Of a stretch of 64,000 bases of DNA, positions 13,687-45,613 are shown in pieces (position 1 is the first letter of the stretch; each line of letters starts with the position of its first letter). Position numbers and translations under genes: made by a program. Under the pieces are notes generated by a model, which ran no database searches, had not been told where the DNA came from, and was given only the letters and a program-made list of their open reading frames with translations. The stretch covers positions 1 to 64,000 of the forward strand of contig JAIXUQ010000050.1 in NCBI GenBank assembly GCA_027483465.1, in the 5' to 3' direction. This DNA comes from Sphingomonadales bacterium (GTDB lineage Bacteria > Pseudomonadota > Alphaproteobacteria > Sphingomonadales > Sphingomonadaceae).

Positions 13687-14994
13687 ATGAGCAAGGCACC
13701 GCAGAAACCGAGGGGCACACAGGACATGATCGGCGAGGCCGCGGCCCGCTTTGATCATGTGATCGAAACGTTCAACCGGGTGCGCAAACTCCACGGCTTT
13801 GGCCGGGTGGAGGTGCCGGTGTTCGAAGCCACCGCCGTGTTCGCGCGCAGCCTGGGCGAGACGACCGATGTCGTTTCCAAGGAAATGTATGAATTCACCG
13901 ATCGCGGCGGCGATGCCATGTGCCTGCGGCCGGAATTCACCGCCGGCATCGCGCGCGCCTATATCGAAAATGGCTGGCAGCAGCATGCACCGCTGAAGCT
14001 TGCCGCCTGGGGGCCGCTGTTCCGTTATGAACGGCCGCAAAAGGGCCGTTTCCGCCAGTTCCACCAACTGGACGCCGAGATATTGGGCGCCGGCGAGCCG
14101 GCGGCGGACGTGGAGGTGATCGCGCTGGGCCAGCATCTGCTCGATGAACTGGGCGTGGCCGGTGACGTGGTGGTGACGCTGAACTCGATGGGCGATCCGG
14201 CCACCCGCGCCGCCTGGAGCGCCGCCGTTGCCGCCCATTTCGCCGCCCACCGCGGCGACCTGAGCGAGGACAGCCAGCGCCGGCTGGAGGCCAACCCGCT
14301 GCGCATCCTTGACAGCAAGGATGCCCGCGATCAGGCGCTGGTGGCGGATGCGCCGCAGATCGACGCCTATTTCACCGCCGAGGCCGGCGCCTTTTTCGAA
14401 AGCCTGCAGAAGGGCTTGCAGGCCAGCGGCATCGCCTGGACGCGCAACGCCCGGCTGGTGCGCGGGCTGGATTATTACCGGCACAGCGTGTTTGAATTCG
14501 TGACGCAAAGCCTGGGCGCGCAAGGGACAGTGCTGGGCGGCGGCCGCTATGACGGGCTGATCGGCCACATGGGCGGGCCGGACACGCCGGCCGTGGGCTG
14601 GGCCGCGGGGATCGAGCGGCTGGCGATGCTGGTGGCGGAGCCGGAATTGCCTGTAGTTGACGTTGCCGTTATCCCAGAACATCCCAGCGTAGAATTGGAG
14701 GCTGTCCGGCTTGTTGGTGCTTTGCGCCGCGCTGGCTTTTCTGTTTTTTCCTCCTTCAAGGGAAATGCCAAGAGGCGCTTTGAAGTCGCAAAGAAGGTAA
14801 GCCCTGTTTGGCAGCTATCTGTTTTGCCTGGCTCGCAAGGCCTCGTGTGGGTTGACTTAAAGAGATTTGGTTCCTCGGTCGAAATTGATCGCTTGGTTGC
14901 TGAAAGAATTTTGCAGTCAGTTCCGGGCTTTCGTTGGCAAACTGATCTTGATCCGCCAGCCCACAAGCTTCGTGCCAGCTATCAAAGCATTTGA
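13687..14994 (+). CDS. hisS: Histidine-tRNA ligase with unusual C-terminal domain
   Basis: Class II synthetase that charges tRNA-His. The 435-residue product has the catalytic core ([11 protein letters not shown] start, [40 protein letters not shown]) in typical GC-rich codons. From about 14645 the base composition drops sharply (45-55% GC in sampled 60-base blocks against ~70% nearby), and the anticodon-binding domain it encodes is divergent: [19 protein letters not shown] and [14 protein letters not shown] still fit the fold, but the usual ILGEDE-type strand is replaced by [20 protein letters not shown] and an unusual tail follows. The frame is intact. Start is ATG at [10 protein letters not shown]. 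prfA follows after 12 bases. Confidence 0.93.
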
Positions 14995-15006
14995 GTTGCT
15001 TTTGCA

Positions 15007-16071
15007 ATGACCCTGCCCATCGAGCGCATCGCCCAGATCGAGCGCCGCCATGCCCAATTGGCGCACGACATGGGCAATCCGGCGCTGCCGCCCGAACAAT
15101 TCGTGGCGCTTTCCAAGGATTATGCCGAGCTGACCCCGGTGGTGGAGGCGGCGACGGCGTGGCGGGCGCTGCTGGCCGAACAGGCCGAATTGCAGGCCAT
15201 TCCTGCCGGGGACGAGATGCATGGCATCGCCCAGGAGGAACTGGCCAGCATCGCCGCGCGGCTGCCGGCGGCGGAGCGGGCGCTGGCGCTGCAACTGCTG
15301 CCGCGCGATGCCGCCGATGCGCGTTCGGCCGTGCTGGAAATCCGCGCCGGCACCGGGGGGGACGAAGCCGCGCTGTTTGCCGGCGATCTTGCCCGCATGT
15401 ATGAACGTTATGCCGCAAGCCACGGCTGGCGTTGGGAAATCATTTCGGAAAACGCCTCCGATCTGGGCGGTTTCAAGGAAGTGATCGCCAGTGTTTCGGG
15501 CGCCGGCGTGTTTGCCCGGCTGAAATTTGAAAGCGGTGTTCACCGCGTGCAGCGCGTGCCGGTGACCGAGGCCGGCGGGCGCATCCACACCAGCGCCGCC
15601 ACCGTGGCCGTGCTGCCCGAAGCCGAGGATGTGGACATCAGCATCGACGACAAGGATCTGCGCATCGACGTGTTCCGCGCCAGCGGCGCCGGCGGCCAGC
15701 ATGTGAACGTGACCGACAGTGCGGTGCGCATCACCCATATCCCCAGCGGCGTGGTGGTGGCGGTGCAGGACGAGCGCAGCCAGCACAAGAACAAGGCCAA
15801 GGCGCTGAAATTGCTGCGCGCCCGCCTGTTTGATGCCGAGCGGGAACGGCTGGCCAGCAGCCGCAGTGCCGACCGCCGCGCCATGGTGGGCAGCGGGGAC
15901 CGCTCCGAACGCATCCGCACCTATAATTTCCCGCAAGGCCGGGTGACCGATCACCGCATCAACCTGACCCTGCACCGCCTGGCCGAAATACTGGAAGGGC
16001 CGGGGCTGGACGAAGTGGTGCGCGCGCTGGTGGCCGAGGACGAAGCGGCGCGGCTGGCGAGCCTGGGCTGA
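15007..16071 (+). CDS. prfA: Peptide chain release factor 1
   Basis: Recognises UAA and UAG stop codons and triggers peptide release. The 354-residue protein has the GGQ loop (SGAGGQHVN), whose glutamine contacts the peptidyl-transferase centre, and the RF1-type PxT codon-recognition motif as PVT in [38 protein letters not shown] is also RF1-typical. It lies between hisS and prmC; its stop overlaps the prmC start (TGATG), so enzyme and methylase are translationally coupled. Confidence 0.97.
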
Positions 16072-41555: not shown

Positions 41556-41927
41556 TCAGCGTTCGGCTTCATACACCCGGCCGCGCGGATCGCGTGAACC
41601 GGCCGCCTGGTTCACATTCTCCTTGAAGCGCTGATAGTTGCAGCCGAACGGGCCACCCGGCCCCCAGGTGCCGGAACAGGTGCCGGCCGTGCCGACATCG
41701 GGCCCGAGCAAACGGTTGCGTTCGTTCGAAACACTGAGCGTGCCGCGCTCCCCGAACGACCGCAGCACCGGCAATGGCGCGCGATAGGGCGATGGCGGCG
41801 GCTCGCGATTCGCGCAAACGACGATCTCGTCAGGCCGGCTTTTCGGTGGGCAGATCACGCTCCACCCCGGCGGCATCAGCGCGGCGGTGCCACTGGCGGC
41901 CATCAGCATGGCGGCCAGCGCGCCCAT
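41556..41927 (-). CDS. Exported hypothetical protein
   Basis: A 123-residue protein with an apparent signal peptide (MGALAAMLMAASGTAALM) and a mature part rich in arginine, proline and glycine with four cysteines (VICPP, VVCANRE, GTCSG, FGCNY). The tail reads SRDPRGRVYEAER. I do not recognise the family. Its ATG overlaps the lpdA stop by one base (TGATG), so it is the last gene of the PDH operon. Periplasmic location is inferred. Confidence 0.6.
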   Translation of the reverse strand: MGALAAMLMAASGTAALMPPGWSVICPPKSRPDEIVVCANREPPPSPYRAPLPVLRSFGERGTLSVSNERNRLLGPDVGTAGTCSGTWGPGGPFGCNYQRFKENVNQAAGSRDPRGRVYEAER

Positions 41928-43324
41928 CAATAGTGCAGCGCCCGCCCGTACGCGTCGAGCACGCTTTCATGCATCATCTCGCTCAGCGTCGGGTGCGGGA
42001 AGATGGTGTGCATCAATTCCGCCTCGGTCGTCTCCAGCCCCATGGCGATGGCATAGCCCTGGATCAACTCGGTCACCTCGGCGCCGACCATGTGGGCGCC
42101 CAACAGTTGCCCGGTGGTGGCATCAAACACCGTCTTCACAAAGCCTTCCGCCTCCCCCAGCGCGATGGCCTTGCCATTGCCGATGAAGGGGAATTTGCCG
42201 ACGCGCACGCTGTGGCCGGCGGCCTTGGCTTTGGCTTCGGTCAGGCCGATGCTGGCCACCTGCGGGCGGGCATAGGTGCAGCCGGGAATGCGCGCCACGT
42301 CCATCGCGTGGGGGTGGCCGCCGGCGATATGCTCCACCGCGATGATGCCTTCATGGCTGGCCTTGTGCGCCAGCCAGGGCGGGCCGGTCACATCGCCGAT
42401 GGCATAAAGGCCGGGCAGATTGGTTTGGCACATCGGATCGGTGACGATATGGCCGCGGTTGGTGGCGACGCCGAGCGCTTCGAGACCGATGTTTTCCGTG
42501 TTGGGCACGATGCCGATGGCAACGATGACATGGCTGTAGCGGTCGGTGCTGGCCTTGCCATCGGCGGTGGTGATGGTGGCGGTCACGCCCTCGGGCCCCG
42601 GCGTCACGTCGCTCACTTTGGCGCCGGTCATGATCGTCAGGCCCTGCTTGGTCAGCGCCTTTTGCGCGAAGGCTGAAACCTCCTCATCCTCCACTGGCAG
42701 GATGCGTTCGAGCATCTCCACCACCGTCACCGTCGCGCCCATGTCGCTGTAGAAGCTGGCGAATTCGATGCCGATGGCGCCCGATCCGATCACCAGCAAT
42801 TTCGTCGGCATCGCCGGCGGCACCATGGCGTGGCGATAGGTCCAGATGCGGTTGCCGTCCGCCTCAAGGCCCGGCAGATCGCGGGCGCGGGCGCCGGTCG
42901 CCACGATGACATTCCTGGCGCTGAGCACCCGCTCACTATTGGCGGTCGTAACCGAGACGCTGGTCGGCCCGGTCAAGCGCCCCTGCCCTTCCACCACCTC
43001 GATCCTGTTCTTCTTCATCAGGCCCTTCACGCCGCTGTTCAGCTGCGCCGCCACCTTGCGGGAACGGTCGGTCACCTTCTTCAGATCAAACGCGGGCTTC
43101 TCCACGCTGAGCCCATAGGCATCGGCGTGGGTGATATAATGATAGATTTCGCTGGTGCGCAGCAGCGCCTTGGTCGGGATGCAGCCCCAGTTCAGGCAAA
43201 TGCCGCCCAACCGCTCACGCTCGACAATGGCGACCTTCAAGCCCAACTGGCTTGCGCGGATCGCGGCGACATAGCCGCCGGGGCCGGAGCCGAGGATAAC
43301 GAGATCAAATGTTTCAGGCGTCAT
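41927..43324 (-). CDS. lpdA: Dihydrolipoyl dehydrogenase (E3)
   Basis: FAD flavoprotein that reoxidises dihydrolipoamide on the PDH complex, reducing NAD. The 465-residue product has the FAD GxGxxG motif VILGSGPGGYVAAI, the redox-active disulfide C43/C48 (GICLNWGCIPTKALL), a central NAD-binding VIGSGAIGIEFASFY and the C-terminal HPTLSEMMHE with catalytic histidine. Start overlaps the upstream 112-residue ORF (ATGA), and its stop overlaps the next gene. Confidence 0.96.
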   Translation of the reverse strand: MTPETFDLVILGSGPGGYVAAIRASQLGLKVAIVERERLGGICLNWGCIPTKALLRTSEIYHYITHADAYGLSVEKPAFDLKKVTDRSRKVAAQLNSGVKGLMKKNRIEVVEGQGRLTGPTSVSVTTANSERVLSARNVIVATGARARDLPGLEADGNRIWTYRHAMVPPAMPTKLLVIGSGAIGIEFASFYSDMGATVTVVEMLERILPVEDEEVSAFAQKALTKQGLTIMTGAKVSDVTPGPEGVTATITTADGKASTDRYSHVIVAIGIVPNTENIGLEALGVATNRGHIVTDPMCQTNLPGLYAIGDVTGPPWLAHKASHEGIIAVEHIAGGHPHAMDVARIPGCTYARPQVASIGLTEAKAKAAGHSVRVGKFPFIGNGKAIALGEAEGFVKTVFDATTGQLLGAHMVGAEVTELIQGYAIAMGLETTEAELMHTIFPHPTLSEMMHESVLDAYGRALHY

Positions 43325-43659
43325 TGTAACCTTCTGCTGTTCAATCGTGATGCGAGTTGTCGCAAATAACTCACCACTGACTCACGTTTCCCGATCAAAG
43401 CAGTGTCGGGTTGCACACGCCGGGGATGATCACCCTGAGAATAACAGAGAGCTACACACAATTTGATCCACGTGCGTCGATGAGATGCAGGCTCTGGAGC
43501 TATCTGAAGTGCATCGGAATATATGTTGCCGACAGTCAACCAATTGCGAGCATGCGCCTTATCCAAATTTATGTCTATTCTCTGTTCAAATAATGTGATG
43601 GCGTCTATTTCGTCTCCGTCTCCGACCAGTGAAAGCGAATTCAGTGGTTGGCGCATCAT
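43321..43659 (-). CDS. Low-GC hypothetical gene in the PDH operon, possibly carrier-protein-like
   Basis: A 112-residue ORF fitted exactly between pdhC (3 bases) and lpdA (four-base ATGA overlap). Base composition is foreign: sampled blocks are 37-58% GC. Its middle, LSLVGDGDEIDAITLFEQRI then LDKAHARNWLTVGNIYSDAL, resembles the second half of an acyl-carrier-type helical bundle (as in an LVxxxDSLDxxxLxxxLE...TVGD pattern), but the attachment serine is absent. The carboxyl part (RTWIKLCVALCYSQGDHP, RVQPDTALIGK) resembles a carrier N-terminus. The resemblance is weak and inferred by eye. No signal or membrane segment. Two consecutive ATG codons could start it. Confidence 0.6.
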   Translation of the reverse strand: MMRQPLNSLSLVGDGDEIDAITLFEQRIDINLDKAHARNWLTVGNIYSDALQIAPEPASHRRTWIKLCVALCYSQGDHPRRVQPDTALIGKRESVVSYLRQLASRLNSRRLQ

Positions 43660-43662
43660 AAA

Positions 43663-44958
43663 CTACGCCACCAGTCCTAGCGGGTTCTCGATCAGCGCCT
43701 TGATCGCGCCCATCAGTTCGGCGCCGTCCGCCCCATCGATGGCGCGGTGATCGAAGCTGCCGGTGATGGTCATCACCGTGGCGATGGCGAGCGCGTCGCC
43801 CTTCACCACGGCGCGCTTCTCGCCGGCGCCCACGGCCAGGATCATCGCCTGCGGCGGGTTGATCACCGCGTCAAACTGCTTGATGCCAAACATGCCCAGA
43901 TTGGAAAGCGACGCGGTGCCGCCCTGATATTCGTGCGGCTGCAACTTGCCGGCGCGGGCCTTTTCGGCGAGCACCTTCATTTCGCTGGCAATCTGGCTGA
44001 CGGCCTTGCCATCGGCGCCGGTGATGATCGGCGTGATCAGGCCCGAGGGCGCGGCTACGGCCACCGAGATATCGGCGCGCTCATAGACGAGCAAATGATC
44101 GCCGGCGAACGAGACGTTGCACTTGGGCACTTGGCGCAGGCCGAGCGCCAGCGCCTTGATGACGAGATCGTTGACGCTCACCTTGATGCCGCGCGGTTCC
44201 AGCGCCTTGTTCAATTCGCCGCGCAGCTTGAGCAGCGCATCCAGTTCCACGTCGAGCGTCAAATAGATGTGCGGGATGGACTGTTTGGCCTCGGTCAGCC
44301 GGCGGGCGATCACCTTGCGCACATTGCCCAGCTTCTCGACGCTGTGCGGAATGTCGCTGGTGACCGGGGCGGCGGGTGCCGGCGCCGGAGCCGGGGCGGG
44401 CGCTGCCGGCACCCCCTCTCCCGGGCCGCCCTGCGGGCGTCTCTCGACCTCTCCCCCAGGGGGAGAGGTGATGGCCACCGGCTTGCCGGCCGCGGCCTCC
44501 ACATCAGCGCGCACGATGCGGCCGCGCGGGCCGCTGCCGGCCACGCTGGCCAGATCGACGCCCTTCAGTTCGGCGATGCGGCGGGCGAGCGGGCTGGCGA
44601 TGATGCGCTCCCCAGCCGCCGGCGGCGCAGCCACTGGGGCCGGGGCGGCGGCTGGCGCTGCCGCCGGAGCGGGAGCCGGGGCGGGTGCCGGCTTCGGCGG
44701 CGGCGCACTGCCCTCGCCGTCGCCGGCCAGCCGCAGGATCACCGTGCCCACCGGCACATTTTCGAGGCCCTCGGGCACGGCGATCTCGATCACCACGCCT
44801 TCGTCCACGGCCTCCACCTCCATGGTGGCCTTGTCGGTCTCGATCTCGGCGATGATATCGCCCGATTTCACCGTGTCACCCGGCTTCACATGCCATTTGG
44901 CCAGCGTGCCCACCTCCATGGTGGGCGACAGGGCGGGCATGGTCACATCAATCGCCAT
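43663..44958 (-). CDS. pdhC: Pyruvate dehydrogenase E2, dihydrolipoamide acetyltransferase
   Basis: Core of the PDH complex; transfers acetyl from lipoamide to CoA. The 431-residue product has one lipoyl domain (lipoyl lysine 43 in [12 protein letters not shown]), an alanine/proline linker, a peripheral-subunit-binding domain ([20 protein letters not shown]), and a catalytic domain ending with the active-site histidine in [17 protein letters not shown]. Inside the linker, about 20 residues (from [12 protein letters not shown] to GEGVP) are encoded by an intergenic-type palindromic repeat in frame. ATG at [11 protein letters not shown] is used; an earlier frame merely overlaps the NYN gene. 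Confidence 0.95.
44411..44470. repeat. Palindromic repeat inserted in frame in pdhC
   Basis: The block from CCCCTCTCCC to GGGGGAGAGGTG contains a perfect inverted repeat, CCTCTCCCCC (44448-44457), one A, GGGGGAGAGG (44459-44468), preceded by the CTCTCCCGGGC half. It resembles the GGGGGAGG repeats seen in intergenic gaps elsewhere in the window. It adds about 20 codons and keeps the frame open. Confidence 0.7.
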
Positions 44959-44959
44959 A

Positions 44960-45613
44960 TCAATTGTCCACAAAAAGCTGATCGACCAGCGCGGACTGTT
45001 CGCCATCGTCCGGGTTGTCGATCAGGTCGGCCATGTCGAGGAAATAGGCGGCGGCCCCGGCCAGCGCGCCGGAATAACGGACCTCGGCGCCCTGATCGGA
45101 TTTCATCGCCCAGGCCACCACCAGCGCGCGCTTGCCGATGGCGTTGATCTTCTTCACCAGCGGCACGAAATCGCCATCGCCGGCCACCAGCGCCACCACA
45201 TCGCAGCGGTCAGACACGGCCAGGTCAAACGCCTCCAGCGCCAGCCACACATCGATGCCCTGTTCCTTGGGCGGTTCGCTGTTGGTGTCGATGCGGGTGA
45301 AATGCGGGGTGATGTTGCTGGCGGCCAGGATCTGATCAAACACCCGGTCGTTGCGCAGCGCATCCTCGACGAAATTGCCGGTGCGCGCCCGCTCCTCCAG
45401 ATCGCGCACCGTGTAGCGGCCGCGGAAATAATGCGCCTCCACCACGCGGGCGCGGCTGCGCGGCACATCTTCCATGTCGGCGGTGGCGACGCGGATGAAA
45501 TCCATCAGGCCCGACAGCGACAGGCGGCGCCCGGCCACATGCTCGAACTTGTAGAAGTTCGAAACGCGGTTGAAATAGCTGCCGTCGATCATCACGGCGA
45601 TGCGCGTCTGCAT
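44960..45613 (-). CDS. NYN/LabA-type domain protein (PIN-like nuclease family)
   Basis: A 217-residue single NYN domain. Conserved acidic sites are D10 in VMIDGSYFN, the [10 protein letters not shown] and [16 protein letters not shown] segments, and the [17 protein letters not shown] core; these are the Mg-binding residues of the NYN/PIN fold, and related proteins are RNases or, as LabA, regulators. It lies in the PDH operon, five bases after pdhB and one base before pdhC. ATG at [11 protein letters not shown] is used. A role in controlling this operon's mRNA is only a guess. Confidence 0.85.

Follow-up and report, generated by a model that had tools for sequence, protein, structure and literature searches.

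How does an enzyme as basic as histidyl-tRNA synthetase (HisRS) come to carry an AT-richer and very different tail, when an aminoacyl-tRNA synthetase should evolve slowly and in step with its tRNA? This unexpected combination is found in the hisS gene (positions 13687–14994, forward strand, as are all hisS and prfA features below; 435 residues) of a Sphingomonadales bacterium, in a 64,000-nucleotide stretch (contig JAIXUQ010000050.1, positions 1 to 64,000, assembly GCA_027483465.1) that we call the window. The window HisRS lay above the equivalog cut-off of TIGR00442 hisS (411.9 versus 286.75 bits), with residues 6–371 of 435 matched. It was the single full hisS match of its genome, which held one other, weak match at 27% identity, and the gene is probably essential, its product probably charging tRNA-His in the cell. 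We conclude, with a probability of about 0.82, that the last ~115 codons of hisS have been replaced and act as an exchangeable module; this figure covers the replacement and the exchange, and excludes what drives them.

An earlier, sequence-only reading had described a GC drop from about 14645 with recovery at prfA and had proposed that the domain was replaced by recombination. The drop in the 3′ part of hisS was confirmed. GC content was 0.49–0.52 in 150-bp steps from 14650 to 15024, with 0.74 in the preceding step (14500–14649) and 0.69 in the following one (15025–15174). The C-terminal domain (CTD; 14644–14991) had a GC content of 0.507 over 345 bp versus a mean of 0.674 for the 64-kb window (z=−4.1), and just one other 345-bp cluster, at 43245–43724, was equally low. 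At third codon positions the GC content (GC3) was 0.465 in the CTD versus 0.833 in the catalytic core (13687–14643), whose composition was host-like. When 115-codon windows of other genes were scanned with crude gene calls, none of 1,271 had a GC3 as low as that of the CTD, the minimum being 0.548.

The replacement was located by aligning the DNA of the window hisS–prfA region with nine relatives and scoring identity in 60-nt bins against two sister species, L003 and L005, whose cores were 96% identical to the window core in amino acids and whose CTDs were canonical. Homology to the relatives passed through motif 3 of HisRS (14596–14631), the last conserved block ahead of the swap, broke off at about 14640 and returned at the ATG of prfA (15007–16071). 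Bin identity to the two sister species was 72–98% in the core, 22–50% in the CTD and 77–93% in prfA. Because core and prfA are close to the sister species while the CTD DNA is not, and because both edges are sharp, replacement of the CTD by recombination is supported, as had been proposed; motif 3 and the start of prfA are the likely left and right flanks of the event. None of the fetched relatives carried the same C-terminal sequence, the top-scoring match sharing 56% identity across 55 residues, with 71% identity in the core.

The replacement recurs across the family, a grouping that we take to be Sphingomonadaceae in the broad sense (NCBI places Sandarakinorhabdus in Sphingosinicellaceae). 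hisS was detected in 194 of 199 family genomes; 135 loci were fetched and 134 analysed, L010 being dropped since its contig ends inside the CTD. CTD types were set by motifs plus seven hand corrections, giving 58 canonical (type A), 42 type B and 31 type C domains and 3 orphans. The 76 non-canonical domains among 134 are no measure of prevalence, as the sample consisted of best matches plus 80 picked regions and was not random. The motif of type B is SGSPRKRFDKAVK, and that of type C, the type of the window, is YRGNAKRR...LFVR; the stretch matching the type-C block YRGNAKRRxExAxK lies at 14755–14799 (alignment A1, described below). A hidden Markov model check concurred with the motif types save for one type-B row and the three orphans, all of which fitted type C best. 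With first-pass classes, the median difference between CTD and core GC3 was +0.02 for type A, −0.11 for type B and −0.22 for type C, and canonical and non-canonical rows differed (54 versus 83 rows, Mann–Whitney P=2.9e-14). Two assemblies had unusual loci: G098 contained two hisS–prfA loci (L361 and L362), of which one lay at the end of a contig and had broken frames, and is probably a mixed assembly, and G022 (Sandarakinorhabdus rubra; L048 and L365) had an assembly break within the hisS CTD, with the remaining CTD and prfA on another contig.

Trees of the core demonstrated how often the CTD type has changed. At least 25 changes between canonical and non-canonical were required, 8 of them forced by starred branches (33 changes for four states), on a tree of 137 rows built with a quick method and including three non-family rows (L038, L060 and L061) that were left out of the 134 counts. 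In a DNA tree of the genus (21 rows) a single clade of canonical rows was rejected (P value of the approximately unbiased test (p-AU)=7e-40), and the window belonged to a clade with 100/100 support whose ten rows were split evenly between types A and C (five each). Pairwise comparison, in which pairs overlap in species and hence are not independent, revealed fewer than 45 identical CTD residues in 17 of the 29 pairs whose cores were at least 94% identical, and in 131 of the 163 pairs whose cores were 88–94% identical. The first 100 residues never diverged this far (0/29 and 0/163). In L122/L127, L004/L009 and L004/L011 the cores were 97–98% identical and the CTDs had no BLAST match to each other.

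The CTD has also moved between lineages. Among codons for the same residue in L009 and L011, 5 of 102 differed in the CTD, versus 58 of 299 in the core (Fisher P=0.00024) and 60 of 345 in prfA, and within the core 8 of the 80 codons nearest the junction differed versus 50 of 219 farther away. L004 is the sister of L011 (100/97 support), yet its CTD has no BLAST match to those of L009 and L011. Furthermore, five pairs drawn from L018, L143, L200 and L235 had CTDs 58–67% identical on cores 71–77% identical. These data fit homologous recombination in conserved flanks.

The sequence-only reading had also described the domain as a divergent anticodon-binding fold, and this description held. Neither the isolated CTD nor the whole window protein gave a Pfam match to HGTP_anticodon (PF03129) at E≤10, yet profile–profile comparison and the predicted fold recovered the domain. 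Profile A1 (22 type-C CTDs plus one orphan, window sequence first) matched profile A2 of canonical CTDs with a probability of 99.2%, and types A, B and C were recognisable as homologues by profile comparison. Against PDB sequences, designed proteins (TIM barrels and the like) ranked first with A1 and HisRS followed at 0.0015. The window CTD was predicted to form the alternating alpha/beta fold of a class IIa anticodon domain. It lacks the GxDE motif of canonical CTDs, which was present in 1 of 31 type-C rows. The variant domains remain under purifying selection: the ratio of nonsynonymous to synonymous substitution rates (dN/dS) of the CTD was 0.14–0.37 in 11 variant pairs and 0.06–0.31 in 7 canonical pairs, and in all 18 same-type pairs it exceeded that of the core. 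No complete family row (0/134) had lost the domain. The window CTD carries an extra tail (14926–14991) past the usual domain end, and such tails, many of them hydrophobic over a stretch close to the terminus, were also seen in L127, L129, L140, L201 and L215.

We found that the pattern was specific to this domain and to this family as far as they were sampled. ThrRS has the same kind of CTD and has undergone no comparable turnover in the genus: in 19 relatives its CTD was 78–91% identical to that of the window genome, with cores 77–96% identical, whereas the HisRS CTDs of 21 relatives gave partial matches at 27–55% in 19 and none in 2, with cores 75–96% identical. Among other bacteria, all 54 scored loci (of 60 fetched) fitted the canonical profile A2 best, canonical here meaning this best fit, with the GxDE motif in 13 of 54. 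In a sample of 196 genomes of the order, the best value among the matches listed for the type-B profile was 2.3e-33 within the family and 5.0e-7 beyond it. The type-C profile, run on a sample of 385 genomes of the class, gave outside the family a best score of 67 bits among the matches listed, within the range of canonical CTDs; five such matches were inspected and were canonical, and confirmed type-C rows scored 86–127 bits. As a cassette source, the plasmid-borne hisS of Sphingomonas parapaucimobilis was rejected, since its CTD (L299) is canonical and the hisS–prfA–prmC region around it is chromosome-like. When viral sequences were scanned with three CTDs, one 14-residue match appeared and was taken as chance.

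A mechanism can be proposed in which incoming hisS–prfA DNA of another sphingomonad would recombine in the conserved flanks, at the end of the core and the start of prfA, exchanging the CTD between them; the low-GC cassettes would originally have entered from unseen sources. The exchange may be tolerated if histidine identity is mainly read by the core at G-1:C73, in which case support for tRNA binding would be all that is required of the CTD, leaving it free to vary. According to the available part of PMC10100707, R123 and Q118 of E. coli HisRS read G-1 and C73. Their counterparts, assigned through the motif RPQKGRxRQFHQ with the E. coli numbering of that account, lie in the motif-2 loop of the window HisRS (R116–Q124, 14032–14058) and showed no variation among 18 aligned sequences. 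Full tRNA-His sequences were obtained for 20 genomes (19 of the genus, including the window genome, and one of another genus; the search pattern missed 7 of 60), and every one had G-1 and C73. The last and weakest step is tentative: the turnover might be driven by changing selection from, for example, a phage protein, toxin or natural product that binds the surface of the CTD. The CTD would then resemble a variable antigen, with repeated swaps as escape from a HisRS-directed weapon that binds it while the core keeps tRNA identity, which we regard as possible and doubtful.

The strongest alternative needs no attacker. Under relaxed constraint alone, the CTD would matter little in this family, any arriving domain resembling an anticodon-binding one would be tolerated, and turnover would be neutral; we give this close to an even chance, and consider the neutral combination of tolerance and recombination at least as likely as an external driver. 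It agrees with the G-1:C73 tRNA-His and the conserved motif-2 loop, and with the CTD evolving faster than the core in every same-type pair. It also agrees with the Thermus thermophilus complex, in which G-1 is a major and the anticodon a minor determinant; in Aeropyrum pernix the anticodon is not read (PMC9976931, in the part available for both). However, the domain was kept in 134 of 134 rows, its dN/dS in variants was similar to that in canonical pairs, turnover occurred even between 97–98% identical cores, and ThrRS lacked a comparable pattern.

Several points count against replacement and exchange as we read them, or against single steps of the mechanism. Older type-B lineages have lowered GC3 too, so low GC does not always demonstrate a recent transfer. 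Placing L009, L011 and L012, which have a common CTD lineage, in one core clade gave a borderline result (p-AU=0.048). No CTD donor turned up when phages and plasmids were searched with the CTD, nor in three viral scans or the sample of 385 class genomes; whole-protein searches of phages and plasmids also led to no donor, although the CTDs of their hits were not inspected. All 20 relatives from the order outside the family were canonical, by eye and by profile, and tolerance alone may not explain the restriction to one family; the G-1/C73 readings come from the 20 genomes, and in other families 53-nt tRNA-His stretches were seen. The available part of PMC9976931 also describes changes in the E. 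coli HisRS CTD that alter tRNA selection, so the CTD is not free everywhere. As for the driver, there was no direct evidence of a CTD-binding attacker.

We also considered a mobile element that inserted at the 3′ end of hisS and later disappeared, leaving behind the CTD it had carried. The 3′-terminal position of the swap in a conserved gene and its foreign composition would suit such an event, which is nevertheless quite unlikely. In 133 of 134 family rows no more than 622 bp separated hisS from the prfA that follows it (L208 had none in the 780 nt fetched), and because of this adjacency no resident element is behind the swaps. Moreover, of the 112 genomes that the type-C profile matched, 108 had a single matching place, although these places were not all compared with hisS coordinates. 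The mobile element was rejected on these two grounds. Gaps of 317–622 bp between hisS and prfA, versus the usual overlap, were observed in L013 (same gene as L052), L200, L273 and L128, and might contain CTD remnants or small genes.

Accelerated divergence in place, in which fast evolution and a drift towards low GC reshaped the CTD with no replacement, would account for the homology of the three types by profile and for CTDs outpacing cores within types. We judged it very unlikely and rejected it on the edge identities, on the mismatch between CTD and core, including 97–98% identical cores bearing CTDs with no BLAST match, and on the L009/L011 codon counts, in which the CTD is younger than the core. 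Similar CTDs were also found on distant cores, and the non-genic GC of the window was 0.665 (crude gene calls), not 0.5.

The remaining proposal of the sequence-only reading, that a swapped anticodon domain could affect tRNA identity, did not hold, so that its replacement part stands and its tRNA part falls. That the replaced domain is the anticodon-binding one speaks for a new CTD paired with an altered tRNA-His. The window genome has G-1 and C73, not the A73 without G-1 of other Alphaproteobacteria, and over 78 nt its tRNA-His gene does not differ from those of three canonical-CTD genomes. Each of the five tRNA-His alleles common to at least two genomes serves both CTD kinds. A tRNA-identity change was rejected at the level of the unmodified sequence and is extremely improbable; tRNA-His of the genus has stayed unchanged. 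This agrees with the available text of PMC3937112, which assigns A73 without G-1 to Rhodobacteraceae, Rhizobiales, Caulobacterales and Hyphomonadaceae, and normal G-1/C73 to Sphingomonadales. An assembly or binning chimera, conceivable for a draft of 118 contigs, is just as improbable, since the type-C domain is in frame with both edges at gene-structural borders and a like pattern, with type-C CTDs, occurs in single-contig genomes such as G118 and G125.

Replacement of an exchangeable CTD sets the window HisRS apart from known systems in different ways. It shares with canonical bacterial HisRS (TIGR00442, PF03129) the core, the motif-2 loop, the gene order with prfA among relatives and the predicted CTD fold, and differs in a CTD that is beyond the reach of Pfam, has no GxDE and is unrelated in DNA to that of sister species. 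HisRS has been shaped by horizontal transfer also in the alphaproteobacterial A73/no-G-1 system (Caulobacter and others; PMC3937112 and PMC9976931, as far as available), whereas here the tRNA has a normal G-1:C73 and the exchange is repeated and confined to the CTD. Segmentally variable genes (PMC387263, available in part) likewise combine a conserved and a variable segment in one gene, and synthetases are discussed there; in the ProRS example the anticodon domain is conserved and an insertion is variable, and recurrent replacement between sister species is not described in that account. In the open literature, with subscription papers mostly outside this scope, we found no report of recurrent HisRS anticodon-domain replacement or of the sphingomonad pattern.

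In this family, then, even close species differ in one domain of an essential synthetase, through turnover of that domain, while the tRNA stays constant. It becomes possible to test the extent to which an anticodon domain matters once the acceptor stem carries tRNA identity, and sphingomonads may face an unrecognised attacker of their HisRS. For practical purposes, hisS as a whole is unsuitable as a marker gene in the family, and Pfam-based annotation overlooks many variant CTDs.

Elsewhere in the window, an orphan open reading frame of 112 residues (43321–43659, reverse strand), with no Pfam match at E≤1 and no NCBIfam match at E≤0.01, sits in the stretch of lowest GC (0.467 over 345 bp). Its neighbours on the same strand are a dihydrolipoamide-dehydrogenase-like gene (41927–43324) and an E2-like acyltransferase gene (43663–45006).
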